From Chlorobiaceae bacterium (lineage in GTDB: Bacteria; Bacteroidota; Ignavibacteria; Ignavibacteriales; Ignavibacteriaceae): DNA of 55,881 nt. A program made the position numbers and the translations under genes. Below are positions 27,467 through 54,051 of the stretch, piece after piece (positions within the stretch are counted from its first letter, which is position 1; every line of letters begins with the position of its first letter). The stretch covers positions 1 through 55,881 of the forward strand of contig PNNF01000015.1 in assembly GCA_013824085.1 (NCBI GenBank), written 5' to 3'. The notes under the pieces were generated by a model, which made no database searches, was not told the DNA's origin, and saw only the letters and a program-made list of their open reading frames with translations.

Positions 27467-27945
27467 GAAGTTATTTCGAGTTGAGTGAAATAATAAAAAT
27501 TAGAAAAACACTTAAAGATGAAAACAGAAAAGTAGTTTTTACAAATGGATGTTTTGATCTGATTCATGCTGGTCACGTTGACTATCTCGCAAAAGCAAAA
27601 GCGTGCGGCGATATTCTTATTGTTGCTTTGAATACAGACAATTCAATGAGAAGAATTAAGGGAGAAAAACGCCCCTTAGTTAATCAAGACGAAAGAGCGT
27701 TTGTAATGTCGAACTTAAAGCCCGTAGATTTTGTTGTACTATTTGATGAAGATACTCCTGCCGAAATTATTAAAGCAATAATTCCTGATGTTCTGATTAA
27801 AGGTGGCGACTGGTCAATAGAAAATATTGTTGGTCGCGAAATAGTTGAATCGAACGGAGGAGAAGTAAAATCAATAGAATTTGTTTCTCAACAATCGACA
27901 TCAAAAATAATACAAACAATTTTAGATCGTTACGGAAGTGATTAA
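27463..27945 (+). CDS. rfaE2: D-glycero-beta-D-manno-heptose 1-phosphate adenylyltransferase (RfaE2)
   Basis: Adenylyltransferase that makes ADP-heptose from heptose 1-phosphate. The 160-residue nucleotidyltransferase fold carries FTNGCFDLIHAGHVDYL (HxGH ATP-binding motif at about residues 36-39) and the GGDWSIENIVGREIVES segment typical of the HldE C-terminal half. ATG overlaps the rfaE1 stop, and the tamB GTG lies inside its last codons. With rfaE1 it implies heptose in the lipopolysaccharide of this organism, although the heptosyltransferase genes are not in the window. Confidence 0.95.
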   Translation: MRSYFELSEIIKIRKTLKDENRKVVFTNGCFDLIHAGHVDYLAKAKACGDILIVALNTDNSMRRIKGEKRPLVNQDERAFVMSNLKPVDFVVLFDEDTPAEIIKAIIPDVLIKGGDWSIENIVGREIVESNGGEVKSIEFVSQQSTSKIIQTILDRYGSD

Positions 27946-30900
27946 CAAAAAAAAAATAGAAGAGAAATTTGAGAAACTTGAAGAAAAAATAGGATCTCAA
28001 ATTAATCATCTCGATAAAGAAATTGACAAAATAAGAAGAAGTCTTTTCCACAAAGTTGTCAATGTCTTTCTCGCTTTTTTTATTTTAATTTTTCTCCTCT
28101 CTCTCATTCTTTTCGGAATTTCTCAAACTTCTACATTCAGAGAATTTTTACGAGAAAATATTATTGCAATTGTAAACGAAGAGATTAATGGAACATTAGC
28201 GATTGAAAAAATTGAAGGAACAATTTTTACTTCATTGCTAATAAAAAATGCAAGTCTAAGTGATAAAACAGATAAAATAATTTCATTTGAAAACTTAAAA
28301 ATTAAATTGTCTCCGTTGCAAATATTTTTAGGAAAAATTTATGTCCGAAATATTGAATTAGAAAATGTCGATATAAATTTTTATAAAGACTCACTCGGGC
28401 AATTAAACATTTCAAAAATTTTTCCTCCAGCAGAAAAAGTTGATACAACCAAAAGTGAATTTCCCTTTGTAATTCAAGTCGTTGACCTAAAACTTAAAAA
28501 TATTAATTTTCTTTTGCAAAGCGACGAGAACAAAGGCAGCAATAGAGATTATGAAGTTTTGAACTTAAATGATTTACGTATCAATAACTTATTTCTTTCG
28601 CTTGGGGCATATGCAGACATTACCAATAATATCTATGAATTAGCGATTGATGATTTTTCATTCTTAATGAATTTGAAAAATTTTCAGTTCAGTTACTTCC
28701 AAACATATCTTCGAGTTGATGAAAATAAAATTGAAATTGATAATTTTAATTTGCTGACGAATAATTCCAATATCAATCTGAACGCTACTATTACTGACTT
28801 AAATCTCTTTGGCGAACTTAACGAAGAAGCACTCGGGAAAAGTAAAATTAATTTTATTCTGAATGCTGAGAATTTTGATTTCAAAGACCTCAATTCTTTT
28901 TTTACTTCTACTAATGTTCTAAAAGGAAATTTTAGTACAAAATTTTCGGCAAGTGGAAGTTTTAACGAGCTTGATATTAATCAATTAGATATTAAGTTGA
29001 ACAACTCCAACATAAATACAACGGGCAAAATTTTTAATCTCACTCATCCAACAGATTTATATATTAGTTCAAAAATTACAAATTCAAAAATTTACTATAA
29101 TGATGTAAAAAATCTTTTTCAAAGTTTGGCTCTTCCTGACTTTCCTAACTTAGATTTTATTCAGTTCGATACTTTGAGCTATGAAGGGCAGCCAACAAAA
29201 TTCACTGTTAATCTGGCTTCAACTATCGAAAACGGAAAATTGAATGCTGTTGCTGACTTTGATATGACTAAAGGAGAGATGGTTTATGATATTGACGTCT
29301 TCACACGTGCATTAAACTTAAACTCAATAATTGAAATTCCTTCTTCGCTTAACCTTGCCTTAAATGTGAAGGGACGCGGAACAAGTGTTGATAAAATTAA
29401 TGCTGATTTATCAACCAAAATTGAAAATTCAAATTTTAATAACATCAACATTAAAAGTTTGGAGTTGTTAGGAAGTTTTAAAAATAAAATTTTACTCTCA
29501 AGCATAATTGGTTCAACAGGAAATGATTCAATTGATATTTCAGCAAAAATAAATTTTGAGGATCCTAATTCCCCTATCTATCAATTGAATTCGTCTTTTC
29601 GAAATATTCAATTCGCTAAATTTGGATTGGAAGCAGAAAACTTCAAGAGTAATTTAAATTTTAATTTCTCCGCAGTTGGAAAAAACTTTGAACTCGATAA
29701 ACTTAATTCAGAAATTTATCTGGATATTTTCGACTCACGCATAAACGATTCAATAATTAATAATCAGAACATTAAACTCATTGTCGCTTCGAATGATTTA
29801 GGTAAGTCAGTACAGTTTAAGAGTGAAGTAATTGATCTGAACATTGATGGAAATTTTTCTTACGTAAGTTTAATAAATTTTGTTCAGGGTGAAATTGCTG
29901 GAATATCAAAGACGTTCATAAAAAAAGCGGATCAATTAATTCCAAGTTTAAATTTAACTATTAATGAAAAAGTAATTCAGAGTTCGCGAAAAATATCTGA
30001 AGAAAAATTTAACCCATTTAATGTCAACTTTAATCTTGTGTTTAAGGATCTAAAACCAGTGATTCAATTTATCCCCAATATTGATGCTACTGTCGAAGGG
30101 AAATTAGTAGGAAAAATTGAAAATCGAAATAACGAGACGATATTTGATATTGAAGCAAATTTTGATTTCTTAAAATTTAGTCAACTCGATGTAGGATATT
30201 TTGCGACTGATTCAAAAATAAAATTTTCCTTAATCTATCCAAGTCAAAATTATGCAATCGAAAATATTAATCTCAATTCAGAAATTAATATCAATCGACT
30301 CTACGCTGGGACTGATGTCGAAAAAATTAATACTAAAATAAAAATTGACGAAGGAAAACTCAGTCTCACATCGTCAGCAGGCTTGAGTAATATTGTTACT
30401 GCAGCTTTCGATTTGAATTCTAATCTAAGCTCAAATGTATTAGAAATAAATTTTGATAAACTAAAAGTTGCTTACAAAGATTATGAGTTTGAAAATCGTA
30501 ATGGAATAAAAATTTCTTATCTAAAACAAAAACTTCTAATAGAAAATTTTAATCTATTTCGGAATGATTCGGAGATTTCAATCAATGGAATTTTTTCACA
30601 ATACGGGAATCAAGATTTAGTACTGGAATTAAAAAAGATAAAAGGATTTGAAGTTGGATTTGAAGTTCTCGAACTTAGTCCTGATAATATTATTGATGGG
30701 GACTTAAATGTAACAGCAAAAATTACCGGGCTGCTGAACGACCCACAATTTTCGGTATTATTAACAGCCGATAATATCGCATATCAAAATAAAAAATTTG
30801 GTTCTTTGAAGTCTGAAATCAATTACAAACAAAAGAGATTAATTTCAAATATTGTTTTTCTCGAAGACTTGGAATCAAAAAATGAGCGACTAAAAATTTA

Positions 30901-32500
30901 TGGAAATATTCCAATTAATTTCGGTCTAAATGTTTCTGGCAATAGATTGGTCAACGGTGAAAAAGTAGATATCACAATACTGGCTGATCAATTCGATCTT
31001 TCTGCTATGGGAAATGTTTTTCCTTTTGTTGATGAGTTGCGAGGAATTTTAAATTCCAATATTTCAATATCAGGAAACATTGGTGAAAAAATAGTACGAA
31101 CTGGAAGCTTAAATATTCGTGAAGCATCATTTTTGCTTGAGCAAAATAATTTAAATTACAACGCTGGCTTAGTCTTGCGGCTCGATGATAATCATATTTT
31201 CGTTGATAGTTTTGTAGTTAAAAATTTGGGTGGTGTAAAAAATGTTGGTTCATTAAGAGGAAGTGGAAAATTAGAGTTCGATGATTTTAATCTTATATCT
31301 ACGCAGTTTTTGGTGAATGGCGATTTGACATTATTGTCTGAAGAGTCGCGTGAAAAAAGTCCAACGGTTTTTGGTGATCTTTTCATCGCTACAAAGGGAG
31401 ATATTATTTTTGCGTCCAATCGCGAACGCTCATACTTAAGAGTTCCAATTTTAGTTCGTGAAGCTCGGCTAACTTTTCCTGCATTAGAAACTTCATTTGC
31501 AGGTGATCAAGAAAATTTTGTTTACAGATTTGTTACTGAAATTCAGGAAATATCCAAACGTGAACTTGAAATACAAGAGCTTATTTCGAAGTCAATTGAA
31601 AAAGATGAAGAAGAAAAATTAGTGCGTCCAAGAGCCTCGACTCTTGATTACGATATTTCTGTTGATGTTGATGAAGAAGCATCATTTACATATATCCTCT
31701 CTAAGGAAGCAAACTTAAGATTGAACGCAATTCTAAAGGGTGATCTTCGGTTCGAAAGTTCCAGTGGCATTCAAAATATTCAAGGAGAATTAATTCTTTT
31801 AGAAGGCTCGAATCTCGAATTTATTAAAACATTAACTGCAATGGGTTCGCTTAAATTTGAGAGCGATGTTACTAATCCTTATCTTGATATTACTGCAACA
31901 TATAAAAATTATTATCTCACTGACACACTCTTAAATCGTGAAGAAGAAGTTGCGGTTAAAATAAGACTTGTTGGACCATTGCAAGAATTAGGAAAAAACT
32001 TTACTCAGATGGATGATAATATTGCTGTCTATAAAGGAGCAGAAGCTATCGCCAATAATCAGCCAAGCGAAGAGTATGATAAGTCCGATGCTGTTTGGTT
32101 TATCTTAACAGGAAAATTTAAAAAAGATTTAACAGCTCAAGATCAATCTGCAGCAGTAGGTGAGTTGAGTGCATTCTCAGGCACAGCTACATCACTTGCG
32201 GGAACAATGATTGGAGGATTCTTAAATCAGTATTTAGGAAATATAGTTAGGAATGTTGAGATACGTGCTGCCGGGGCTCAAACAAAATTTAATCTTTCAG
32301 GTAACATTAGAAATTTTAGATATAACATTGGCGGCTCAACTTCTGTTTTCCAAGATTTGTCAACCGCAAATATTCGTGTTGAATATCCGATTATTAGTAA
32401 TTTTATTATTAGATTAGAAAGAAAAGAATCTTTCAGTGGAGCAACTTATCCCACTGAAATGATAAATGAACTTGCACTTAAATATAGAATTGAGTTTTAA
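27938..32500 (+). CDS. tamB: Translocation and assembly module protein TamB (DUF490)
   Basis: Very long (1520-residue) inner-membrane-anchored periplasmic protein of the AsmA/TamB class, which bridges inner and outer membranes and is linked to outer-membrane protein assembly and phospholipid transport. A charged, probably coiled-coil N-terminus (about 1-38: KKKIEEKFEKLEEKIG) precedes one membrane helix (about 42-66). A repetitive beta-rich region with many N-rich strands follows, and a conserved C-terminal TamB domain lies at about 1170-1520 (RVPILVREARLTFP, ILKGDLRFESSSGIQNIQGE). The cytosolic coiled coil is longer than in Escherichia coli TamB. No tamA (BamA-like) gene is adjacent. GTG start overlaps rfaE2 by eight bases. 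Confidence 0.9.
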   Translation: MINKKKIEEKFEKLEEKIGSQINHLDKEIDKIRRSLFHKVVNVFLAFFILIFLLSLILFGISQTSTFREFLRENIIAIVNEEINGTLAIEKIEGTIFTSLLIKNASLSDKTDKIISFENLKIKLSPLQIFLGKIYVRNIELENVDINFYKDSLGQLNISKIFPPAEKVDTTKSEFPFVIQVVDLKLKNINFLLQSDENKGSNRDYEVLNLNDLRINNLFLSLGAYADITNNIYELAIDDFSFLMNLKNFQFSYFQTYLRVDENKIEIDNFNLLTNNSNINLNATITDLNLFGELNEEALGKSKINFILNAENFDFKDLNSFFTSTNVLKGNFSTKFSASGSFNELDINQLDIKLNNSNINTTGKIFNLTHPTDLYISSKITNSKIYYNDVKNLFQSLALPDFPNLDFIQFDTLSYEGQPTKFTVNLASTIENGKLNAVADFDMTKGEMVYDIDVFTRALNLNSIIEIPSSLNLALNVKGRGTSVDKINADLSTKIENSNFNNINIKSLELLGSFKNKILLSSIIGSTGNDSIDISAKINFEDPNSPIYQLNSSFRNIQFAKFGLEAENFKSNLNFNFSAVGKNFELDKLNSEIYLDIFDSRINDSIINNQNIKLIVASNDLGKSVQFKSEVIDLNIDGNFSYVSLINFVQGEIAGISKTFIKKADQLIPSLNLTINEKVIQSSRKISEEKFNPFNVNFNLVFKDLKPVIQFIPNIDATVEGKLVGKIENRNNETIFDIEANFDFLKFSQLDVGYFATDSKIKFSLIYPSQNYAIENINLNSEININRLYAGTDVEKINTKIKIDEGKLSLTSSAGLSNIVTAAFDLNSNLSSNVLEINFDKLKVAYKDYEFENRNGIKISYLKQKLLIENFNLFRNDSEISINGIFSQYGNQDLVLELKKIKGFEVGFEVLELSPDNIIDGDLNVTAKITGLLNDPQFSVLLTADNIAYQNKKFGSLKSEINYKQKRLISNIVFLEDLESKNERLKIYGNIPINFGLNVSGNRLVNGEKVDITILADQFDLSAMGNVFPFVDELRGILNSNISISGNIGEKIVRTGSLNIREASFLLEQNNLNYNAGLVLRLDDNHIFVDSFVVKNLGGVKNVGSLRGSGKLEFDDFNLISTQFLVNGDLTLLSEESREKSPTVFGDLFIATKGDIIFASNRERSYLRVPILVREARLTFPALETSFAGDQENFVYRFVTEIQEISKRELEIQELISKSIEKDEEEKLVRPRASTLDYDISVDVDEEASFTYILSKEANLRLNAILKGDLRFESSSGIQNIQGELILLEGSNLEFIKTLTAMGSLKFESDVTNPYLDITATYKNYYLTDTLLNREEEVAVKIRLVGPLQELGKNFTQMDDNIAVYKGAEAIANNQPSEEYDKSDAVWFILTGKFKKDLTAQDQSAAVGELSAFSGTATSLAGTMIGGFLNQYLGNIVRNVEIRAAGAQTKFNLSGNIRNFRYNIGGSTSVFQDLSTANIRVEYPIISNFIIRLERKESFSGATYPTEMINELALKYRIEF

Positions 32501-34599
32501 TGAAAAAAGAAATTTTAGCATACTTTAATAAAAACACTGATGGAATAAAATCAAGAGATCTTGCAAAAAAATTACACCTAACAAATGATTTCGAATTTCA
32601 TTCGCTAAAAGCTACGCTTCATAATCTTTGTGCAGAAGGTTTTCTTATTCGCGAAGGAAAAAGATATCGAGTTAATTTGGGAATTGTTCCGAAAACAATC
32701 ACAGGCAAACTTGAAATAAATAGAGCAGGTTATGGATTTGTTTCTTGGGAAGATAAAAAATTAAAAGATATTTTTATCGCTGAACGGAACTTGGGAACTG
32801 CGTTCACGGGCGATACTGTTGAAGTTTCTCTTTTCGCTAAACAAAAAGGGAAAGGAAAAAATTTTGAAGGAGAAGTTGTTAGAATAATTAGTAGAAAGTG
32901 GAAAGAGCTTGCGGGCACTTTACAAAAATCGGATTCACTTTATTTTGTTATTCCTTCTTCACCTGAAATTCATAAAGATATTTATGTCTCGTCAAAAAAC
33001 TTGAATGGAGCAAAAGAAGGCGACAGAGTAATTGTTGGTGAACTGATTTGGCTTAGTCCAAAATTAAATCCCGAAGGAAAAATTCAGAAAGTAATTGATA
33101 AAACAAAACTCTTCGAGTCTGAATTAATTACGATAGCTTCTGAATTTAATCTGCCGCACAAATTCTCCTCTAAAACAATTAGTGAAGCAAAAAAAATTAC
33201 TGAAGAGATTGATGAAAATGAGATTCAAAAACGAATCGACTTCCGTTCAATAACCACAATAACTATTGATCCCGAAGATGCAAAAGATTTTGACGACGCT
33301 CTCTCTTTTGAAGAACTTGAAAATGGAAATTATAGAATCGGAATACACATTGCTGATGTTAGCCATTATGTTAAGCACAATTCGGCACTCGATAAGGAAG
33401 CAGTTGAAAGAGGAAATAGCGTTTATTTAGTTGGACAAGTTATTCCAATGTTGCCCGAAAATTTATCGAACAATATTTGCTCTCTCGTCCCATATAAAGA
33501 TAGACTTACCTATTCAGTGATAATTGAGATTACAAAAAAAGGAAAAATTGTTGATCAAAATATTTCTAAAACAATAATTAATTCTAATCGAAGATTTTCA
33601 TACGAAGAAGTGCAAAAAATTATTGAAACAGGCGAAGGAGATTTTTCTAAAGAAATTTTGATACTAAATAAATTAGCAATACTTCTAAGAAGCAAGAGAA
33701 TGAAAGAGGGAAGCATTAATTTCTTTAGTGTTGAAGTGAAATTTGTCTTGGACTCAAATGGAAAACCAATAGAAATTATTCGAAAAGAATCTTTAGAAAG
33801 TAATAATTTGATTGAAGAATATATGTTGCTTGCCAATCAAATTGTTGCTCAACGAATTGGAAAAGTGAGAAAGAAAAGTGACGTGAAGCCATTTGTTTAT
33901 AGGATTCATGACTTCCCCGACAAAGATAAAATTGCGGAATTTTCTAGATTCGTAAAAACACTCGGTTACAATTATTCGGTTGAAGACTCACTTGACCCAA
34001 GAAAATTAAATCAATTGATGGAGAGTGTAAAAGGAAAAGAAGAAGAAGATGTTGTAAACGAACTTGCGATTCGTTCAATGGCGAAAGCTATCTACTCTCA
34101 TCAAAACATTGGGCACTATGGACTTGGATTTAAGTACTATACACATTTTACGTCACCAATAAGACGTTACGCTGATCTATTAGTTCATCGAATGTTGTTC
34201 GATTACTTAAATTCAAAACAACCCAAATATTCAACTGAATCGCTTGAACAATTATCTGAACATATCTCCTTCTGTGAAAAAAATGCAGTTGATGCTGAAA
34301 GATTTTCTGTAAAACAAAAAAGAATTGAGTATCTTCAAAATCACTTGGGAGATGAGTTTGATGCGATTATATCAGGTGTTATGCACTTCGGAATTTTTGT
34401 AAAAATAAGAGATATACTTGCTGAAGGTTTAATTCACGTGCGAAGTTTAGAGAATGATTTTTATGTTTTTGATGAAAAAAAATATGCGTTAATTGGAAGA
34501 GCGACAAAAAAATCGTTTCGACTTGGAGATAAATTGAGAGTTAAACTTGTTAGAATTGATGAAGAAAAAAATGAAGTCGATTTCATTGTGTCTAATTAA
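32500..34599 (+). CDS. rnr: Ribonuclease R
   Basis: 3'-to-5' processive exoribonuclease able to degrade structured RNA. The 699-residue protein has an N-terminal winged helix (about 1-60), cold-shock/OB domains (about 65-200, GYGFVSWEDKKLKDIFIAE), a catalytic RNB domain with the Asp cluster DPEDAKDFDDAL at about 257-268, and a C-terminal S1 domain (about 615-699, GVMHFGIFVKIRDILAEGLI). The long basic tail of E. coli RNase R is absent. ATG shares the A of the tamB stop codon, so the two are translationally coupled. Confidence 0.96.
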   Translation: MKKEILAYFNKNTDGIKSRDLAKKLHLTNDFEFHSLKATLHNLCAEGFLIREGKRYRVNLGIVPKTITGKLEINRAGYGFVSWEDKKLKDIFIAERNLGTAFTGDTVEVSLFAKQKGKGKNFEGEVVRIISRKWKELAGTLQKSDSLYFVIPSSPEIHKDIYVSSKNLNGAKEGDRVIVGELIWLSPKLNPEGKIQKVIDKTKLFESELITIASEFNLPHKFSSKTISEAKKITEEIDENEIQKRIDFRSITTITIDPEDAKDFDDALSFEELENGNYRIGIHIADVSHYVKHNSALDKEAVERGNSVYLVGQVIPMLPENLSNNICSLVPYKDRLTYSVIIEITKKGKIVDQNISKTIINSNRRFSYEEVQKIIETGEGDFSKEILILNKLAILLRSKRMKEGSINFFSVEVKFVLDSNGKPIEIIRKESLESNNLIEEYMLLANQIVAQRIGKVRKKSDVKPFVYRIHDFPDKDKIAEFSRFVKTLGYNYSVEDSLDPRKLNQLMESVKGKEEEDVVNELAIRSMAKAIYSHQNIGHYGLGFKYYTHFTSPIRRYADLLVHRMLFDYLNSKQPKYSTESLEQLSEHISFCEKNAVDAERFSVKQKRIEYLQNHLGDEFDAIISGVMHFGIFVKIRDILAEGLIHVRSLENDFYVFDEKKYALIGRATKKSFRLGDKLRVKLVRIDEEKNEVDFIVSN

Positions 34600-34617: not shown

Positions 34618-37600
34618 ATGAAAAAATATATTTTAATAATAATCGCTCTAATTATTTCATCGCCTCAATCCGTGTTTAGTCAATTTGGTCAGAACAAATT
34701 ACAGTATAAAACATTTGAATGGTACTTTATTCAGACGAAACATTTTGATATCTATTTCACTGAAGACGGCGGAAAGATTGCCGAGTTTACTGCTCGTGCT
34801 GCAGAGTCTGCATTAAAGCAAATTCAAAGTGTAATAAATTATCAAATAAATAATCGCGTTACAATAATTCTTTACGACTCACAAAATGATTTTCAAGAAA
34901 CAAATGTAACTGATGAATACTTGAGCGAAGGAGTTGGCGGCTTCACTGAATTATTTAAGAATAGAGTAGTGGTTCCTTTCACAGGCTCATACAAAGCATT
35001 TAGACACGTGCTTCATCATGAATTAGTCCACGCAGTCGTCAACGATATGTTCTATGGTGGCTCACTTCAAAATGTTATTGCAAATAATATTTCAATCAGA
35101 ATTCCACTCTGGTTTAACGAAGGATTAGCAGAATATCTTTCATTAGGTTGGGAAACTAACACAGATATGTTTATTCGCGATGCAGCTACGAGTGGATACT
35201 TACCCGATATACAAAATCTTGATGGGTATGTTGCGTATCGAGGCGGACAAGCAGTCTTTTATTACATCGCAAGAAAATATGGTGAAGAAAAAATTGGCGA
35301 AATTGTAAACAAGGTAAAATCTAAAGGTGGAGTAGAGGAAGGTATTAAAGCGTCAATTGGGCTTACGCTCGAAGAACTTAATGAACGATGGAAAAAACAA
35401 ATTAAAAGAGATTTTTGGCCTGACATTACTACACGTAAAGATCCGGATGAATTTTCAAAAAGACTTACTGACCATCGAAAAGATGGAGGTTTTTTTAATA
35501 CGAGTCCCGCCCTTTCTCCACAAGGCGATAAGCTCGCATTCATTTCTAATAGAGATATTTTTTTCGATGTCTTTTTGATGAATGTCTCCGACGGAAAAAT
35601 TATAAAAAAATTAGTAAGAGGAAATAGAACTGCAGACTTTGAAGAATTAAATATTTTAACTCCCGGACTCACTTGGTCTCCCGATGGAAAAAAATTAGCT
35701 CTCTCTGCAAAAAGTGGTGGCTCCGATGTAATCTATATTATTGATGTCGAGACTGAAGATATTGAAATTCTTTCTCTCCGCTTCTATGGAATCACTTCTG
35801 TCAACTGGTCGCCCGACAATAAATATTTAACTTTCGCGGGACAGAATGCATTTCAATCAGATATTTTTACTTACAATTTTGAAACAAAAGCGATAACAAA
35901 TTTAACGAATGATATTTTTTCTGACAGCGATCCGAGTTGGGCTCCAGATATGTCGAAAATATTTTTCTCTTCAGATAGAGATTCAGTAATTGATTCAAAA
36001 TCTCTCCCAATTAATTTTAATATTTATGACCACAACTATTTTCAAAAAGATATTTATACTGTAAACATCGGTGATAAAAAAATTACAAGAATAACCGCGT
36101 TGCCAATGAGTGATGAAGGCTCTATTGTTGTTCTTGCTGATGGTAAAGAGATTCTGTTCACTTCAGACTTGAGTGGAATCAGTAACATCTATAGAAAAAG
36201 AGTTCATCTAACTGAAAAAGATACACTTAGTTCTATTGCAGATCTGCCACAAATTCCAATCACAAATTCATTGAATGGATTGCATCAAATTACAATTTCA
36301 AGTGATGGAAAAAAATTAGCATTCTCATCAATGTATCAAGCCGCGTATAATCTTTTTGTATTGAATAATCCACTTGAGACTGACTTAAATTTAACGAGCT
36401 TGCCACTAACTCTTTTTTTCACCGAACTTCTTCAACTAAGATATCCGAAAGAAGATACAACCGATGCAACAAAGAAAAAATTAGAAGCAGAAGCTCTCTT
36501 AGATGAAGGAGAACAAACTAAAGCGCTTGAGTTTTTTACTGGAACTTTTTTAGATACAGAAGCTAAAGTTGATACTGTAGATAATGATTTTAGTAATTTT
36601 GTTTTTGGACAAAATGATTATTTAAAATTTGATTCGTTAAAAAACGTGAATAATCAAAAATTTGATCTCGTTGATAATTTAGATGACGAAGGAAATTTTA
36701 GATTGAATAGATACAAAATTACTTTCTCTCCTGATATTGTTTATGCAAATGCGGGCTACAGTACAATATTTGGTTTGCTTGGAACAACAGTAATTTCATT
36801 TAGTGATGTGCTTGGCAACCATAGAATCATTGGTCAAACTAGTCTTCAAATAGATTTAAAAAATAGTGACTATGGAGTTGCATATTATTATTTACCTCAA
36901 CGAATGGATCTTGGGTTTGAAGCATTTCACACAGCACGCTTTGTTTTTTTGAATCGTTTCGGATTCGCAAATCTCTATCGATTTAGAAATTATGGATTCG
37001 TAAGTTCAATTAGTAATCCGCTAAATCGATTTTATAGAATTGATGGAGCACTAAGTTTACTAAATGTAACGAAAGATAATTTAGATGACCCACGCGAAAA
37101 ATCAGAAGAGGCGACATATTTAATTACAAGTGCAAGTTTCATTCACGATAATACAATCTTCGGTTATACCGCACCAATAGAGGGCACGCGCTATCGTCTC
37201 GATTTTCTTGCTAATCCATTTGTTCAAGCAAAAAAATATGGCTTCTATACTTTCTTAGCTGACTATCGTTCTTATTTAAGATTTTGGTATGACTATTCTT
37301 TTGCATATCGATTCACTGCAGGATATTCGTGGGGAAATAATCCGCAACGTTTTTTCTTAGGAGGAATTGACAATTGGATAAACAGAAAATTTGCAACAGG
37401 CGATATTCCCATTGAATCGCCATCTGATTTTGCATTTCTTTCCACTGTTCTACCTTTGCGTGGTTTTAATTATGCAGAACAAATCGGAAGCAAATATTCG
37501 CTTATGAATTTAGAACTCCGTTTTCCTTTAATAAGATATTTGTTGACGGGAGCATTGCCAATATTATTTAGAAATGTGCAAGGCGTTGCCTTTGTTGATG

Positions 37601-37812
37601 CTGGTGCAGCTTGGAATGATAATAAAAAATTAAGATTGTTCTCTCAAAATGCGCTGGGAAATTCTGTCTCGGAAGATTTGTTAATGGGAACAGGTGTTGG
37701 TGCAAGATTATTTTTTCTCTATTTCTTGTTACGATTTGATGTTGCTTGGGCTTATAACTTTGATACTTTTTCTAAACCGGTTTTTTATTTTTCAATCGGT
37801 GCAGATTTTTAG
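34618..37812 (+). CDS. Metallopeptidase - TolB-like propeller - outer-membrane beta-barrel fusion protein
   Basis: The 1064-residue product combines three modules after a signal peptide (residues 1-22, cleavage after VFSQ). The first is a gluzincin-like peptidase with HELVH at 134-138 and WFNEGLAEYLS with Glu168 as probable third zinc ligand. The second is a PD40/TolB-type WD propeller at about 300-590 (LSPQGDKLAFISNRD, TWSPDGKKLALSAK and similar). The third, after a linker, is a C-terminal barrel at about 690-1064 (NRYKITFSPDIVYANAGYS, ending PVFYFSIGADF). The mature protein probably sits in the outer membrane with its peptidase on one side. It starts 18 bases after rnr. The substrate is unknown. 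Confidence 0.8.
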   Translation: MKKYILIIIALIISSPQSVFSQFGQNKLQYKTFEWYFIQTKHFDIYFTEDGGKIAEFTARAAESALKQIQSVINYQINNRVTIILYDSQNDFQETNVTDEYLSEGVGGFTELFKNRVVVPFTGSYKAFRHVLHHELVHAVVNDMFYGGSLQNVIANNISIRIPLWFNEGLAEYLSLGWETNTDMFIRDAATSGYLPDIQNLDGYVAYRGGQAVFYYIARKYGEEKIGEIVNKVKSKGGVEEGIKASIGLTLEELNERWKKQIKRDFWPDITTRKDPDEFSKRLTDHRKDGGFFNTSPALSPQGDKLAFISNRDIFFDVFLMNVSDGKIIKKLVRGNRTADFEELNILTPGLTWSPDGKKLALSAKSGGSDVIYIIDVETEDIEILSLRFYGITSVNWSPDNKYLTFAGQNAFQSDIFTYNFETKAITNLTNDIFSDSDPSWAPDMSKIFFSSDRDSVIDSKSLPINFNIYDHNYFQKDIYTVNIGDKKITRITALPMSDEGSIVVLADGKEILFTSDLSGISNIYRKRVHLTEKDTLSSIADLPQIPITNSLNGLHQITISSDGKKLAFSSMYQAAYNLFVLNNPLETDLNLTSLPLTLFFTELLQLRYPKEDTTDATKKKLEAEALLDEGEQTKALEFFTGTFLDTEAKVDTVDNDFSNFVFGQNDYLKFDSLKNVNNQKFDLVDNLDDEGNFRLNRYKITFSPDIVYANAGYSTIFGLLGTTVISFSDVLGNHRIIGQTSLQIDLKNSDYGVAYYYLPQRMDLGFEAFHTARFVFLNRFGFANLYRFRNYGFVSSISNPLNRFYRIDGALSLLNVTKDNLDDPREKSEEATYLITSASFIHDNTIFGYTAPIEGTRYRLDFLANPFVQAKKYGFYTFLADYRSYLRFWYDYSFAYRFTAGYSWGNNPQRFFLGGIDNWINRKFATGDIPIESPSDFAFLSTVLPLRGFNYAEQIGSKYSLMNLELRFPLIRYLLTGALPILFRNVQGVAFVDAGAAWNDNKKLRLFSQNALGNSVSEDLLMGTGVGARLFFLYFLLRFDVAWAYNFDTFSKPVFYFSIGADF

Positions 37813-37909: not shown

Positions 37910-38578
37910 GTGTATAAATCATCTGTTTCAATTTTACTTTTACTATTATTAGTTTTACCCGGTTGTTTGAACTACGAACAAGAGGTTAGTCTCTATCCCG
38001 ATGGTTCAGGTGATATGAAAATAAAATATTGGATGGAGTTTACAAATAGAGATAATATTGAACTCCTTTCAAAAGTTGGAATATTTAATTCCGATTCAAT
38101 CCGAAGTCAGTTCACTCATGAAGATGTAAGAATAAAAGATATTGTCGTAGTTACTGACACAGTAGATAGTTTACTTCGAGCAGAAATACATATTCAATTT
38201 GAGCATATCGATTCTCTTAATCATCTAAGACTTTTTTACGAATCAAATTTTTCATTGAAAGAAGGAGCTGCAGGTCAGCTAACATTTTCGCAATTTATTC
38301 CTCCAATCGCAATCGGTTTTGGAATTGATGCTTCTGATTTTAAAGTAAAATATATTTATGAATTCCCTGGGGAGATTGTAACACACAATGCAACGCAGGT
38401 AACAAAGAAGCAACTCATCTGGGAGTATTCGTTACCCGAGATCGGAAAAGGGAAAACAATTTCGGCGACTTACAGACCATTTAAACTGAAAGAAACTCCT
38501 TATTGGATTTATATTTTGTCGGGTGTTGTTTTGTTTATAGTTATTGTCTTTCTTTTCAGAAAAAAAAGAACTTGGTAA
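37910..38578 (+). CDS. Predicted lipoprotein with C-terminal membrane helix
   Basis: The 222-residue protein begins at GTG 37910 with a lipoprotein signal (SILLLLLLVLPGC, lipidation Cys at residue 19). It contains EVSLYPDGSGDMKIKYWMEF and two DUF-like beta stretches, and ends in a single transmembrane segment (IYILSGVVLFIVIVFLF) followed by RKKRTW. A lipid anchor plus a C-terminal helix is consistent with a protein attached to the inner membrane with a large periplasmic part. I do not recognise the family. A TAACTTTG element at 37871-37878 is a possible promoter core. Nothing nearby fixes a role. Confidence 0.7.
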   Translation: MYKSSVSILLLLLLVLPGCLNYEQEVSLYPDGSGDMKIKYWMEFTNRDNIELLSKVGIFNSDSIRSQFTHEDVRIKDIVVVTDTVDSLLRAEIHIQFEHIDSLNHLRLFYESNFSLKEGAAGQLTFSQFIPPIAIGFGIDASDFKVKYIYEFPGEIVTHNATQVTKKQLIWEYSLPEIGKGKTISATYRPFKLKETPYWIYILSGVVLFIVIVFLFRKKRTW

Positions 38579-46547: not shown

Positions 46548-48374
46548 TTATTTCTTTAGTGAAAATACAATTAGCAGTCCGTCCATATTGGTTGCTGCAA
46601 AAAGATTATCATTTATTTTAGTTAATGAATTTACACGCGAGCTTCCGAGGAAAAGACCATCTTGCAAAATCTTCTTTTCATCTATAAAATTTATCCAACC
46701 ATTTTTTTGTGAAATAAAAATATTATTTCCGCTTTCAATTATCTCAGTTGGATTTGTATCGATATTAGTTTTTAAGTCAAACTTCTTTATCATTTTTCCA
46801 GATTTAGATTCAACAATGAAAAAATTATTTTCATGACTTTTGATAAAAATATTTTTCTTATCCTGACTTATACCGATTGATTCCCAAGCAGAAAAATCAT
46901 CTTTACGCCAAACAGTTTTTCCGAGGAAAATGTCTATTGCTGAAACAAATTTGTCGGGTGTTGTGACATAAATATTTTCTTCATCAAAAACAGGAATTGA
47001 AGCTGCAGGAGAAAAATAAAAATTTCTATTTTCAGACCAACGCCAATTTAATTTTCCATCTTCAATACTCAAGCAATAAAGAAATCCATCCCAGCTACCA
47101 AATATCACGCGATTCTTCACAATGATTGGACGAGATTCAATCATAGCAGTAGCCGAGTTGTTTTCCCAAATCTGAAAAAAATAAAAAATATCATAACAAT
47201 AAACTTTGCCCGAAGCAGTTCCGAATATTACTGCTGTTGTTTGCTCACCTCTAAATCGTATCGGAGCGAAAGAAATTTGAGATGTGATAGGTTCGCCAAT
47301 TCCAATCGATTGTTCAATGCTTCCATCTGCAATATCCAAAGAGAGCAACTCGCCTTCGACAGTTCCATAAATTAAAAGTCCGCTTGTTACGTTTGGGCGA
47401 CTAATAATTGTTGACTCGGAATGATGTCGCCACAATAAATTACCACTTAGATCATAGCAATAAATAAAGCCGCGCTTCGTTGTTACAAAAATTTTATTAT
47501 CGTAAGTTATTGGTGAATGAAGCAGAGTAGTTTTGTGCTCTTTCAGAAAATGAACGTCAAATTTTTTATTTATAAATTGTAGTGAATCAACTTTTGGAAT
47601 TAGTAAAGTATCAGTTAGAGAAATCTTTAGCCAGCTTCCCAATTTATTTTCTGGATTCACTTCAGTAAAAAAAGCTGAATCATTTCTAAGTTGAACAAAA
47701 TTATATCCCCAAAATTTTTCTTTGCTCAGAGTTGAGCGTCCCATAATTCCGGGAATACCATTAAAACTGAATTGCTTGTTTGCGTGTCCGTGCCCAACGA
47801 GAACAAATTCAATTTGAGCTTTACGAAGAATGTTTGTAACCTTAAACCAATTATCCGTTTCAGAATGAAGTTGATGATGTTGAACGTAAATTATTTTTTT
47901 ATTTTTTGGAGTATGAGTAACAATCGAGTCGAGCCAAAGTAAATCTTCAGGAGCAATATGTCCACCACCTCCACGCCAAGTAATGCCGCTATTTAAACCA
48001 ATGAATTTGAAATTATTTTTTTCAAAAACAAATTTATCATCTTTCCAAAGTTCAGAAAATTTGGTTGTTCCACTCTCACTCCACTTTGAATCGTGGTTGC
48101 CGGGAACAATGTAATATGGAATTTTAAGTCTGTCTAAAATCTCTTTTGTTTTTATGAGTTCAGAGTTTCTTCCTTTTTCAGTAATGTCACCCGAAATTAT
48201 TACAAACTCAAATTGTTGCTTTAGATTAATATCATTCACGACTGCGGCTAAGTCAGTTTCACTCGTCGTAGCTCCAATGTGAAGATCAGATAGCCAAGCA
48301 AAGTTAATAGTTTGACTAAATGAAGTTGTTGTTAAGAATAAAATGTAGAATAAAAAGAGTTTCAAAATCTTCAT
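46548..48374 (-). CDS. Secreted metallophosphoesterase with C-terminal PQQ-like propeller
   Basis: The 608-residue protein has a signal peptide (LKLFLFYILFLTTTSFSQ) and a calcineurin-like phosphoesterase domain (about 20-230). The dimetal motifs are DLHIG, ISGDITEKG, VPGNHDSKW and VGHGHANKQ. The rest (about 270-608) is a propeller of PQQ/quinoprotein-like blades, for example FVTTKRGFIYCYDLSGNLLW and IFGSWDGFLYCLSIEDGKLNW, without obvious PQQ-binding residues. It is probably periplasmic or exported. The substrate is unknown; a phosphodiester or phosphomonoester is implied by the fold. It forms an operon with the HAD gene and is divergent from the glycosidase-like gene. Confidence 0.85.
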   Translation of the reverse strand: MKILKLFLFYILFLTTTSFSQTINFAWLSDLHIGATTSETDLAAVVNDINLKQQFEFVIISGDITEKGRNSELIKTKEILDRLKIPYYIVPGNHDSKWSESGTTKFSELWKDDKFVFEKNNFKFIGLNSGITWRGGGGHIAPEDLLWLDSIVTHTPKNKKIIYVQHHQLHSETDNWFKVTNILRKAQIEFVLVGHGHANKQFSFNGIPGIMGRSTLSKEKFWGYNFVQLRNDSAFFTEVNPENKLGSWLKISLTDTLLIPKVDSLQFINKKFDVHFLKEHKTTLLHSPITYDNKIFVTTKRGFIYCYDLSGNLLWRHHSESTIISRPNVTSGLLIYGTVEGELLSLDIADGSIEQSIGIGEPITSQISFAPIRFRGEQTTAVIFGTASGKVYCYDIFYFFQIWENNSATAMIESRPIIVKNRVIFGSWDGFLYCLSIEDGKLNWRWSENRNFYFSPAASIPVFDEENIYVTTPDKFVSAIDIFLGKTVWRKDDFSAWESIGISQDKKNIFIKSHENNFFIVESKSGKMIKKFDLKTNIDTNPTEIIESGNNIFISQKNGWINFIDEKKILQDGLFLGSSRVNSLTKINDNLFAATNMDGLLIVFSLKK

Positions 48375-51165: not shown

Positions 51166-54051
51166 TTATTGCATCAATATCATTTTTTTAGTTTCAGAAA
51201 ATTTCCCTGCGGTTCCACCACCAGTTTGATTTACAATTATTCGATAAAAATAAATCCCGCTTGTTAAATTTGTTGCATCAAATTCAACTTTATAACTTCC
51301 TGATTTCCGTTCTTGATTAACCAAAGTTGCAATTTCATTTCCAAGAATATCGTAAACTTTTAATGAAACGAAACCATCAAATGGTTGATTCCAATTAATA
51401 AGAGTGCTTGGATTAAAAGGGTTTGGATAATTTTGTGAAAGTGAAAAAGTATTCAGATCAACAAAATCATCTTTAACAGAAGTTGAAATTGAATCACCAA
51501 AAATTATCAAAGCCCATCTTGAGAGTGTCCCAACAACGCCAGAATTTCTGTCAAGAATATTTATGACCCAATTTCCTTTAGCATTTTGATTTACGAACGA
51601 ATTAAAATTTACCCTTGCTGTATCAGGTTGGAATTCACCTTCAGCTTTAGTAGAATCCAAAAGTTCTATTTGTGAAATGTTAAAGAAAGCGTTTCGATTA
51701 AAAAATAATTTTGGATTAACAGCATTTGAGAAACGAGTGCTCAATCCAAATCGTTCAAACAAGATTGCCAAATTTGGATTGTAAGGTGTAATCATTCTCG
51801 CATTTAAATCACTTGCACGAGCGTGATTTATTTCGAGATAAAGATTTACGTCGTTTATATTAAGATCAAACGGAACAACAATTGTATCACGCAGACCAAG
51901 TGGCGCAAGGTCAGGAACGGTTCTGTTCGGATTATTTTGGAAGACAAATGCTTTTTCAACATCCAAAGAATTAAAACCAGATTGCGGCACGCTTGTTCTA
52001 TTTCTACTTGGCGAATTATCAATTGCAGTAAAACGATAATGAATTCGATCACTCACATTTACATTCTGTGATTCATACGGAAGTTTTACATAATAGATAT
52101 CATCTCTATATCGAATTAAATTTTGTTTCGTTAGTGTTGTGTTGTTCAATCTGTATTCAACAAAAACTGAATCTAGAGCCATATTATCAGCCACTCGCGC
52201 AAAAAGTGTTATAGGAAATTGAAACTGCGAGACTTTGTTTGAATAGCTAAAAGAGATTGTTGGTCGAGTTGTATCAGGTCCAACAAAAAAAGCAAAAATA
52301 CTTGTAGGTGCATCTGAAGGGAAATAATGATAATTTCTCAGTGTATCATAAACGCTAAAGAAATAATTGATGCGACTATTTAACGGAATATTATTTATTG
52401 TAAAAGAAAATTCATTCGGAATTAATGTTGGTGTCATCCTAAACGAATTAAAATTTCCAGTTCCAATTCTATAATGAATTTTCAGCGAATCCCTTACAAT
52501 AATATTTTGTGGTGTTTGTATTTGTAATTTTATTTCAATCGGAGTGTTTGCTGTTACATCTCGCTGCGGTGTATGAGCAAATGTTATCGGGAAAAATGGA
52601 GTCATTCGATATGAAAAATTTCCCGAAACTGCAGTGGTAGAAGTAAAAACCGGAATGAGAACTACGTAATCAATTTCACTAATTCGTCGAGTAATAAATC
52701 TTTCAACAGAAGTAAGTTGTGAAATGTTGAATGATAAAATTTCCGAAGTATTATTTTTGTACTTAATTGCTAACTGCACAATTCCCGGACTGTTAATTCT
52801 ATTATCAAAAAATAAACTAATTAAATTATTTAAGTTCGCGCCTCGCAGATAAATAAAATTTGCTGCAGGTGTAGTTACATTGCATCCGCCGGAACTATCA
52901 GGAATTACAACATTTTTACATTCAGTTGAAATTGGATAATTCGCTGCTTCGATGTATGATCTAAAAAGTGGAGTTGATCTTAAATTTGTAAAATAATTCC
53001 AAGTATGATATTCAGCGAAGCCAATTTGGAAAGTTGAGCCGAACGTTGATAATATTGAGTTAAACGTAGTATAAATATTTTCACCCGGTACAGATCTTCT
53101 TCGTTCCCACAAAAGTCTGTTTGTGTTTACGCCATGTTTTTGAGAGACATAGTGAAGCCAGATACAATCTTCATAACCGCGCCCTTGCGCAAAATTTCTT
53201 TGCGGCGAAACAATCTGAGAAGAGTTAAGATAATTGTAATAATCATTCACAACATTGTATCCAATATCTTCCATCCAAGTTGCGTCCATTTCTAAAAACC
53301 AACCCGGCTCATTCCAACCACTAAAAGCCATTTGCACTGCGTGCTTAAATTCATGAATTGCAGTAACTTTTGCGGCTCCTTTTATTCTCCCTTCAGGATC
53401 ATTGTTTGGTGGAAATCCGACAAAAGTGTGGTGCATAACAATTCTAGTTAGTCTGCCTCCAATCGATTGGCAATAACCATAGAATTCCATGTTTTCAAAG
53501 CCGATTTGATATCGCCCTGTGCCTATTGGCGGCGCAGCGTGTCCCAAAGTGTCAATTGTAAATCGCCAAGAATAATCGAAGTAATCAGCAACCCACTCAA
53601 CAAAATCAGGCACCGAGTTTGAGTTCCCATCAGTAGGATTTACAGCATGCGTTCCCGTAGTTTCATAAGTTAATTCAAATTTTCCGGAAGGAGAGATGAA
53701 AGTTCTAGCAGTTATTGATTCTTGAAAGGGACGACTTAAGAATGAATTGATTTCATCAATTGTTGCTTGAGTAAGGAGTGATTGGTTATCATAAAATTCA
53801 TCAATCAAATGTGTAGCACATTTAATTTTTGTTTGTTCAGATTTTGGAATCGAAAAATCTGAAGATAATTTAGGCGAATTAAAACCGTAGTAAAATTTTT
53901 GCAGTAGTGATTCTTCATAATCAATAACGCCATTTTTAAAAGCAGTTTCAATTAAGTCAATTGCTTTGTTGTGGCGATGTTCTTGAGAAAATGTATAAGT
54001 AGTAACAAAAAAAAGTAAGAGAGAGAAAAATAATTTCAAATTAAACTCCAA
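51166..54051 (-). CDS. T9SS-exported metalloprotease-like protein (MXAN_6640-type) with P-like domain
   Basis: The 961-residue protein has a signal peptide (LFFSLLLFFVTTYTFSQ). Its N-terminal third contains HEFKH at 233-237 in AIHEFKHAVQMAFSGW, then WFLEMDATWMEDIGYN, as in the putative metalloproteases called MXAN_6640 family. Several beta-sandwich stretches follow, and a proprotein-convertase-like P domain lies at about 700-845 (NLAPNPN-type loops and GNWVINILDRNSGVVGTLSRW). The final 90 residues (from LSQNYPNPFNPST to FSETKKMILMQ) are a type A T9SS sorting domain, so it is predicted to be secreted or surface-attached. Catalysis is not proven by the motif. Confidence 0.85.
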   Translation of the reverse strand: MEFNLKLFFSLLLFFVTTYTFSQEHRHNKAIDLIETAFKNGVIDYEESLLQKFYYGFNSPKLSSDFSIPKSEQTKIKCATHLIDEFYDNQSLLTQATIDEINSFLSRPFQESITARTFISPSGKFELTYETTGTHAVNPTDGNSNSVPDFVEWVADYFDYSWRFTIDTLGHAAPPIGTGRYQIGFENMEFYGYCQSIGGRLTRIVMHHTFVGFPPNNDPEGRIKGAAKVTAIHEFKHAVQMAFSGWNEPGWFLEMDATWMEDIGYNVVNDYYNYLNSSQIVSPQRNFAQGRGYEDCIWLHYVSQKHGVNTNRLLWERRRSVPGENIYTTFNSILSTFGSTFQIGFAEYHTWNYFTNLRSTPLFRSYIEAANYPISTECKNVVIPDSSGGCNVTTPAANFIYLRGANLNNLISLFFDNRINSPGIVQLAIKYKNNTSEILSFNISQLTSVERFITRRISEIDYVVLIPVFTSTTAVSGNFSYRMTPFFPITFAHTPQRDVTANTPIEIKLQIQTPQNIIVRDSLKIHYRIGTGNFNSFRMTPTLIPNEFSFTINNIPLNSRINYFFSVYDTLRNYHYFPSDAPTSIFAFFVGPDTTRPTISFSYSNKVSQFQFPITLFARVADNMALDSVFVEYRLNNTTLTKQNLIRYRDDIYYVKLPYESQNVNVSDRIHYRFTAIDNSPSRNRTSVPQSGFNSLDVEKAFVFQNNPNRTVPDLAPLGLRDTIVVPFDLNINDVNLYLEINHARASDLNARMITPYNPNLAILFERFGLSTRFSNAVNPKLFFNRNAFFNISQIELLDSTKAEGEFQPDTARVNFNSFVNQNAKGNWVINILDRNSGVVGTLSRWALIIFGDSISTSVKDDFVDLNTFSLSQNYPNPFNPSTLINWNQPFDGFVSLKVYDILGNEIATLVNQERKSGSYKVEFDATNLTSGIYFYRIIVNQTGGGTAGKFSETKKMILMQ

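Follow-up and report, generated by a model that had tools for sequence, protein, structure and literature searches.

What use could a bacterium have for a polypeptide that joins a zinc peptidase, a beta-propeller, and an outer-membrane barrel? The question is raised by a gene in a 55,881-nucleotide stretch of DNA (the window; contig PNNF01000015.1 of assembly GCA_013824085.1) from a Chlorobiaceae bacterium placed in the order Ignavibacteriales. The gene occupies positions 34618–37812 of the forward strand, is complete, with an ATG start and a product of 1064 amino acids followed by a stop codon, and has orthologues in the genomes sampled from its order. An earlier note, made from the letters of the window, had read the three domains in this chain. 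Pfam, NCBIfam, a PF01103 match in the genome search, and AlphaFold2 agree with it, which confirms one chain composed of a peptidase of predicted gluzincin fold, a TolB-like propeller, and an Omp85-type outer-membrane barrel.

Within the 1064-residue chain, Pfam places Peptidase_MA_2 (PF13485) at residues 61–263 (E 1.3e-13) and PD40 in four stretches (E 5.8e-19). NCBIfam adds TolB (1.5e-31) and, at residues 876–1044, TamL (1.2e-8), both far below their curated cut-offs. The full chain was modelled by AlphaFold2 from a 66-row alignment with a mean predicted local distance difference test score (pLDDT) of 86.3 and a predicted template modelling score of 0.83; a mixed alpha/beta peptidase domain is followed by the propeller, a disordered stretch, and 16 long strands. 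The alignment, A3, covers FCB bacteria and contains the window protein together with 65 of the 80 wider loci, which were the top 80 among 450 confirmed relatives. Eleven loci had no homologous open reading frame (ORF) of more than 980 amino acids (L132, L148, L149, L153, L156, L167, L179, L184, L185, L189, and L199; L184 was lost to an ORF on the opposite strand), and L126, L130, L163, and L201 were excluded as cut. Mean identity of the 65 other rows to the window protein is 55.9% in the peptidase, 46.2% in the barrel, 44.5% in the propeller, and 16.8% in the linker (residues 600–690).

The chain starts with a putative signal peptide (residues 1–21, 34618–34680), whose cleavage site was placed by eye and in which no lipobox was seen by eye; its conservation in A3 is low (21.6%). 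It is directly followed by a conserved mature N-terminus (residues 22–30, 34681–34707), which reads QFGQNKLQY in the window protein and has the consensus QFGKNKVQY. In this QFGxNK motif, F23 is present in 62/66 rows (tyrosine in two), and G24 and N26 in 64/66 each, two rows being gapped.

The zinc peptidase domain (residues about 22–272, 34681–35433) contains the motif HELVH (35017–35031), in which by homology H134 and H138 are zinc ligands and E135 is catalytic, and the motif NEGLAE (35116–35133), in which E168 is by homology the third zinc ligand. The three ligands, already singled out in the earlier note, and E135 are invariant in 30/30 close orthologues from a whole-protein search and in 66/66 rows of A3, the window protein being included in both counts; E172 is retained in 65/66 rows. 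The A3 sequences were collected with two peptide patterns, one of which covers E168 and E172. Neither covers HExxH, so its invariance is no search artefact. A motif filter served only to choose the rows of the 23-member alignment A1; it dropped L111, which keeps HELVH and reads NEGISE, and L082, which has both motifs, is also absent from A1. PF13485 matches 64/64 members of the peptidase alignment A4, which skips L178 and L191, two Balneolaceae loci that start inside the gene and lack the start of the domain.

Modelled alone (residues 22–280), the domain reached a pLDDT of 91.7 and has a gluzincin-type fold. VIA-align superimposed it on the Grimontia/Vibrio collagenase 8jt1 (Z 17.4, root-mean-square deviation (rmsd) 3.3 over 223 residues), the M30 peptidase 7bb8 (Z 17.0, rmsd 5.8 over 236), and the aminopeptidase 6atk (Z 14.8, rmsd 4.0 over 227). 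When the peptidase profile was compared with the sequences of solved structures, no related match was found, the best (E 0.042) being an unrelated proteasome chain. The catalytic domains of clostridial and Vibrio collagenases and of M1 aminopeptidases share the gluzincin-type fold at about 10–18% identity, a likeness in fold and not in function. HExxH and a downstream glutamate ligand in a gluzincin fold, the features of clan MA, are found together here in the residues, the PF13485 match, and the predicted structure, and the domain is a probable zinc-dependent protease. Since the peptidase is the best conserved domain of the chain by mean identity in A3 and its catalytic set is invariant, its activity appears to be kept.

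The propeller (residues about 278–590, 35449–36387) was detected by PD40 and is assigned six blades because the folds it matches are six-bladed. TolB chains superimpose on it with Z 24–27 and rmsd 2.3–2.8 over about 240–250 residues, and designed Pizza6 propellers with Z 23–24. The chain scores 109.7 bits with the TolB model TIGR02800, below its cut-off of 343.15, and a search of the same genome with this model gave no match above the cut-off. TolB is a free periplasmic protein with an N-terminal domain of its own, whereas here the shared propeller is fused into a longer chain. The propeller is connected to the barrel by a poorly conserved linker (residues about 609–690, 36442–36687), predicted to be disordered, with pLDDT below 50 over residues 627–681.

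A barrel had been placed beforehand at residues 690–1064 as a check, and AlphaFold2 shows one (residues 704–1064, 36727–37809) with 16 strands of at least six residues from 704 to 1060, a count that omits five three-residue strands after residue 900. VIA-align matched it to BamA 8xnb (Z 24.9, rmsd 3.8 over 313 residues) and TamA 8us1 (Z 22.1, rmsd 3.7 over 292), and also placed chains of the sorting and assembly machinery on it. The Omp85 model PF01103 scores 40.7 bits at the locus in the genome search (cut-off 24); it is not listed by hmmscan for the single chain at E <= 1, and is found by hmmscan in 6/23 members of A1 (best 2.1e-16). The BamA model TIGR03303 is not listed for the chain at E <= 1, whereas the five POTRA-bearing Omp85 proteins of the same genome do match it.

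Both Omp85 signature motifs are present. The first is the tip of loop L6, RGF (residues 948–950, 37459–37467); L6 (residues 907–958) lies between strands 11 and 12. R948 and G949 are found in 66/66 rows, the preceding position is leucine in 53/66 and valine in 5/66, and position 950 is phenylalanine or tyrosine in 39/66, so that the core of the (V/I)RG(Y/F) pattern is kept with relaxed flanks. The second is FVDAG in strand 13 (residues 992–996, 37591–37605), which has the form FxDxG (F992 in 64/66 rows, D994 in 66/66, G996 in 65/66). In PMC4490367, a salt bridge between the two motifs is described as a lid lock, with FxDxG in TamA and BamA and GxDxG in FhaC. By its motifs and predicted structure, the barrel belongs to the Omp85 superfamily and has a lid lock of the insertase form FxDxG.

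The gene is widespread. A match was found in 59/59 genomes of the order sample, the own genome included, with completeness down to 76% and some copies split over contigs. In the phylum sample, 105/148 genomes and 75/83 genera have a match at E <= 1e-10, counts that include weaker matches to the peptidase and propeller only. Twenty listed genomes lack a match and belong to the family codes f18, f19, f22, and f27; 23 more are not listed. Named relatives come from Ignavibacteria, Balneolaceae, KSB1, Calditrichota, Neomarinimicrobiota, Kapaibacteria, and one Cloacimonadota record. In a quick tree of 76 rows, supported only by the Shimodaira–Hasegawa-like approximate likelihood ratio test, the 66 A3 rows (A type) cluster by FCB group, many labels of metagenome-assembled genomes being mixed. 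A lineage-restricted or recent gene was rejected on the presence in all order-sample genomes and this clustering, and the protein appears to be ancient and frequent within its bacterial group. The earlier note had called the arrangement unusual, which holds only in part, given these counts and the fact that propeller-Omp85 proteins are a named subfamily (PMC4104836).

The same genome has seven PF01103 loci: BamA, a patatin-Omp85, a TamL-like protein in which one of three POTRA matches falls below the cut-off, POTRA proteins of 596 and 441 amino acids, and two peptidase-propeller copies. The second copy, paralogue B (type B; 941 amino acids, L080:7462–10284), has the same kind of domains and branches apart from all A-type rows in the tree. 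The zinc and catalytic residues and both barrel motifs are present in all 10 type-B sequences examined; F23, G24, and N26 of the mature N-terminus are retained in 7/10, the other three being gapped. Outside the A-type copy, 49/59 order-sample genomes have a further place at E <= 1e-45 (counted by eye), mostly in frames of about 930–990 amino acids and in a few of 1027–1047. When the barrel profile was compared by hhalign with the single Omp85 sequences of the genome, only paralogue B was close (E 5.5e-29); the 441-residue Omp85 protein gave 5.9e-7 and the TamL-like protein a weak 3.2e-5. By eye, the genes preceding paralogue B look like HPr and enzyme I of the phosphotransferase system. A pairing of peptidase and propeller in separate frames was seen elsewhere (L265/L255, G000:C5:32454–33550), where an M48 peptidase match has a TolB-like propeller match, in a 682-amino-acid frame, close behind it on the same strand.

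The gene directly follows tamB and rnr, as the earlier note had stated. The tamB-like gene (27938–32500) and rnr (32500–34599, ribonuclease R, PF00773 8.3e-111) both lie on the forward strand. The call of tamB needed a family profile of 19 sequences (A2), which gave three matches at E <= 1 among solved sequences, all of them TamB (9xdc 3.7e-17, 23sp 1.6e-10, 5vtg 3.6e-6); the window copy alone matched neither PF04357 nor any other TamB model, and PF04357 was found in 2/19 members of A2. Two genes upstream of tamB were named rfaE1 and rfaE2 (hldE-like) by eye. Downstream of the three-domain gene, a 222-amino-acid putative lipoprotein (37910–38578, forward strand; LPGC seen by eye, a weak LppM match only, E 0.018) could be a partner of the three-domain protein.

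Of the 58 relatives, 30 were read for gene order: rnr adjoins the gene in 29/30, tamB lies beyond rnr in 28/30, and the putative lipoprotein is kept in 19/30. The exceptions are L059, at a contig end, and L063, which has none of the window's neighbours. Among the 79 phylum genomes with a best match at E <= 2.5e-128, in which the position of tamB and not of rnr was scored, 46 (8/21 family codes) have tamB on the same strand, at most 6 kb upstream. The order tamB-rnr-gene also occurs in six Balneolaceae loci (L182, L192, L198, L199, L200, and L204). The operon logic is weakened by the neighbours of tamB in 20 chosen genomes, where tamB-rnr occurs without the three-domain gene alongside (L244, L247, L254), an rfaE2-like gene adjoins tamB (L235, L236, L238, L239, L242, L243), or tamB adjoins a TamL-like gene (L251, L252). 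In Ignavibacteriales, most TamB proteins end in an LKYRFEF-like sequence with a final phenylalanine, and many other copies have an extra C-terminal tail. That this end tracks linkage to the gene was rejected, as linked Balneolaceae and L203 carry the tail just as many unlinked copies do, and unlinked L238 and L240 end in phenylalanine; for L050–L079, every fourth sequence was compared.

What, then, does the protein do? In Omp85 proteins, the part preceding the barrel lies in the periplasm. On this ground, and because the enzyme domain of the patatin-Omp85 protein PlpD is periplasmic, the peptidase and propeller are placed in the periplasm, where they would take the position that the POTRA domains have in BamA and TamA. 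We tentatively prefer to read the protein as a zinc protease that faces the periplasm and is anchored in the outer membrane by an insertase-type Omp85 barrel, serving the processing or quality control of outer-membrane proteins. The propeller would most likely dock clients or partners, and the peptidase would cut outer-membrane or surface-bound proteins passing the barrel or stalled there, so that these are processed or subjected to quality control, as by BepA beside BamA in E. coli. Matches in 59/59 order genomes and tamB upstream in 46/79 genomes point to a housekeeping role in the envelope, and an enzyme of this kind acting at the barrel is favoured by the conservation of the catalytic residues, the lid lock of insertase type, and the breadth of the distribution.

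Several points weigh against this interpretation. Omp85 proteins are known to bind their clients through POTRAs, and no POTRA was found in the chain at E <= 1 or at the locus at E <= 10, the model showing the peptidase and propeller in their place. Neither activity nor clients nor interactions of the protein have, to our knowledge, been measured. With three M48 peptidase matches and a BamA in the same genome, the role is not forced by an absence. In 33/79 phylum genomes tamB lies elsewhere, in one of them adjoining the gene but on the opposite strand, and the synteny may be merely old gene order, because rnr, which stands between tamB and the gene, is not clearly tied to the function. Finally, the barrel could be a mere anchor.

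This last point can be extended into an alternative that is somewhat improbable but weightier than the others, in which the barrel only holds the chain in the membrane, as in PlpD, and the peptidase-propeller part would be a periplasmic envelope-maintenance enzyme unrelated to barrel assembly, for example one that processes lipoprotein or cell-surface precursors. PlpD is an Omp85 protein with a periplasmic enzyme domain and is linked by its authors to lipid homeostasis (PMC11116518), the same genome also carries a patatin-Omp85 protein, and a long disordered linker would suit a tethered enzyme. The lid-lock and FxDxG residues are, however, invariant or nearly so, which seems to exceed the needs of a bare anchor. 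At the opposite end, a more ambitious form of our interpretation, which we consider unlikely, is that of a single-chain assembly and triage machine. On its insertase-type barrel, a zinc protease and a propeller for docking clients would stand in place of the POTRAs; the machine would handle barrel-protein clients and destroy or trim stalled ones, and would have been kept across much of the FCB superphylum, often encoded together with tamB.

The position of tamB two genes upstream suggests a third possibility, that the barrel works with TamB in a system like the translocation and assembly module. Besides the linkage in the phylum sample and in Balneolaceae, it is consistent with TamL being the best-scoring NCBIfam Omp85 model for the chain. 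Yet TamL-like matches at E <= 1e-15 were found in 56/59 order-sample genomes, none of them above the model cut-off and at least five in ORFs of 890–930 amino acids that are possibly patatin-Omp85; because of these matches, the peptidase-propeller-Omp85 protein is not a plain substitute for TamA, and its simple replacement of TamA or TamL is weakened. TamB is present in nearly all listed f18 genomes, where the match to the gene is absent or marginal (best 7e-12), and 33/79 scored phylum genomes have tamB elsewhere. The barrel profile is no closer to the TamL-like protein than to the 441-residue Omp85 protein. The linkage itself says little, because TamL and TamB are reported to be unlinked in Bacteroidota despite a suggested interaction (PMC12045153). 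A joint system with TamB is decidedly unlikely on these grounds.

The earlier note had pictured an export-and-display device, in which the linker would thread the barrel and the peptidase and propeller would stand outside the cell. The disordered linker of about 80 residues, the precedents of autotransporters and of the older view of PlpD, and helix H1 of FhaC, which crosses the pore while the lid lock is closed (PMC4490367), speak for such an arrangement. Two folded domains of about 570 residues would have to be exported, though, and FxDxG is conserved in its insertase form; display of PlpD has been overturned, and FplA is reported as undetected on the surface (PMC11116518). With the N-terminal parts of Omp85 proteins lying in the periplasm and the lid-lock motifs invariant or nearly so, the display claim is not supported; its orientation is probably upside down, and we regard surface display as very unlikely. 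A non-proteolytic role, in which the peptidase fold would serve solely as a peptide-binding docking module, fits the lack of known activity but is hardly credible, all zinc and catalytic residues being invariant over several phyla.

If the protein is the periplasm-facing protease on an insertase-type barrel that we tentatively prefer, much of a bacterial superphylum has a further type of Omp85 protein, with a protease and an insertase-type barrel and no POTRA domains. The replaceability of POTRAs, outer-membrane quality control beyond Proteobacteria, and the role of WD40-Omp85 proteins would then become testable, and the conserved catalytic residues provide a clean single-residue test.

Two further genes of the window were noted. 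The frame at 51166–54051 combines Por_Secre_tail (type IX secretion), a proprotein-convertase P-domain, and an HEFKH stretch, and is possibly a second, unrelated metallopeptidase. At 46548–48374, a calcineurin-like phosphoesterase is fused to a pyrroloquinoline quinone (PQQ)/BamB-like propeller, with a signal peptide seen by eye. Promoter-like sites were not in excess over shuffled sequences (66 vs 72.0), and terminator-like sites were somewhat more frequent (14 vs 8.5, standard deviation 3.1); neither was used.

The closest described relatives are the WD40-Omp85 proteins, a subfamily defined in 2014 by Heinz and Lithgow, who named TolB the nearest structure and compared the subfamily with a BamA-BamB fusion (PMC4104836). 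The chain has the N-terminal WD40-like propeller and Omp85 barrel by which the subfamily is defined, the propeller being TolB-like and the N-terminus devoid of POTRAs in both. In the main text of PMC4104836, the words peptidase, zinc, and PF13485 are absent and "protease" occurs once, beside a "Metallo" group; this Omp85 group is called a metalloprotease there, and its model PF00149 is Metallophos, that of calcineurin-like phosphoesterases. Other Omp85 families are said to be conserved only at the genus level (PMC4104836), whereas the chain occurs in every order-sample genome and across several phyla. Within the collection of papers searched, "WD40-Omp85" and four like phrases occur in PMC4104836 only. 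Among the papers listed by searches that combined Omp85 with terms for peptidases or propellers, the chain is described in no title or opening of an abstract, and no experimental study of the three-domain protein was found. The words peptidase, propeller, and metallo are absent from the available part of PMC12611786 on the Flavobacterium beta-barrel assembly machinery (BAM) complex.

BamA, TamA, and TamL share the 16-stranded barrel, the RG of L6, and FxDxG with the chain, but have POTRA domains where the chain has a peptidase and a propeller. PlpD, like the chain, carries an enzyme domain ahead of an Omp85 barrel; this domain was located exclusively in the periplasm by experiment, which overturned an older secretion model, and the authors link the protein to lipid homeostasis and report FplA to be undetected on the surface (PMC11116518). 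It differs in having a patatin-like lipase and a POTRA domain instead of a zinc peptidase with no POTRA detected. BepA is a periplasmic zinc peptidase that probably works at the BAM complex, either helping LptD to mature or degrading it (PMC8423444), and would resemble the chain as a zinc peptidase in outer-membrane protein assembly; it is, however, a separate M48 protein without an Omp85 fusion. The propeller-Omp85 fusion class is already known, and what is added here is its conserved zinc peptidase and its deep conservation.

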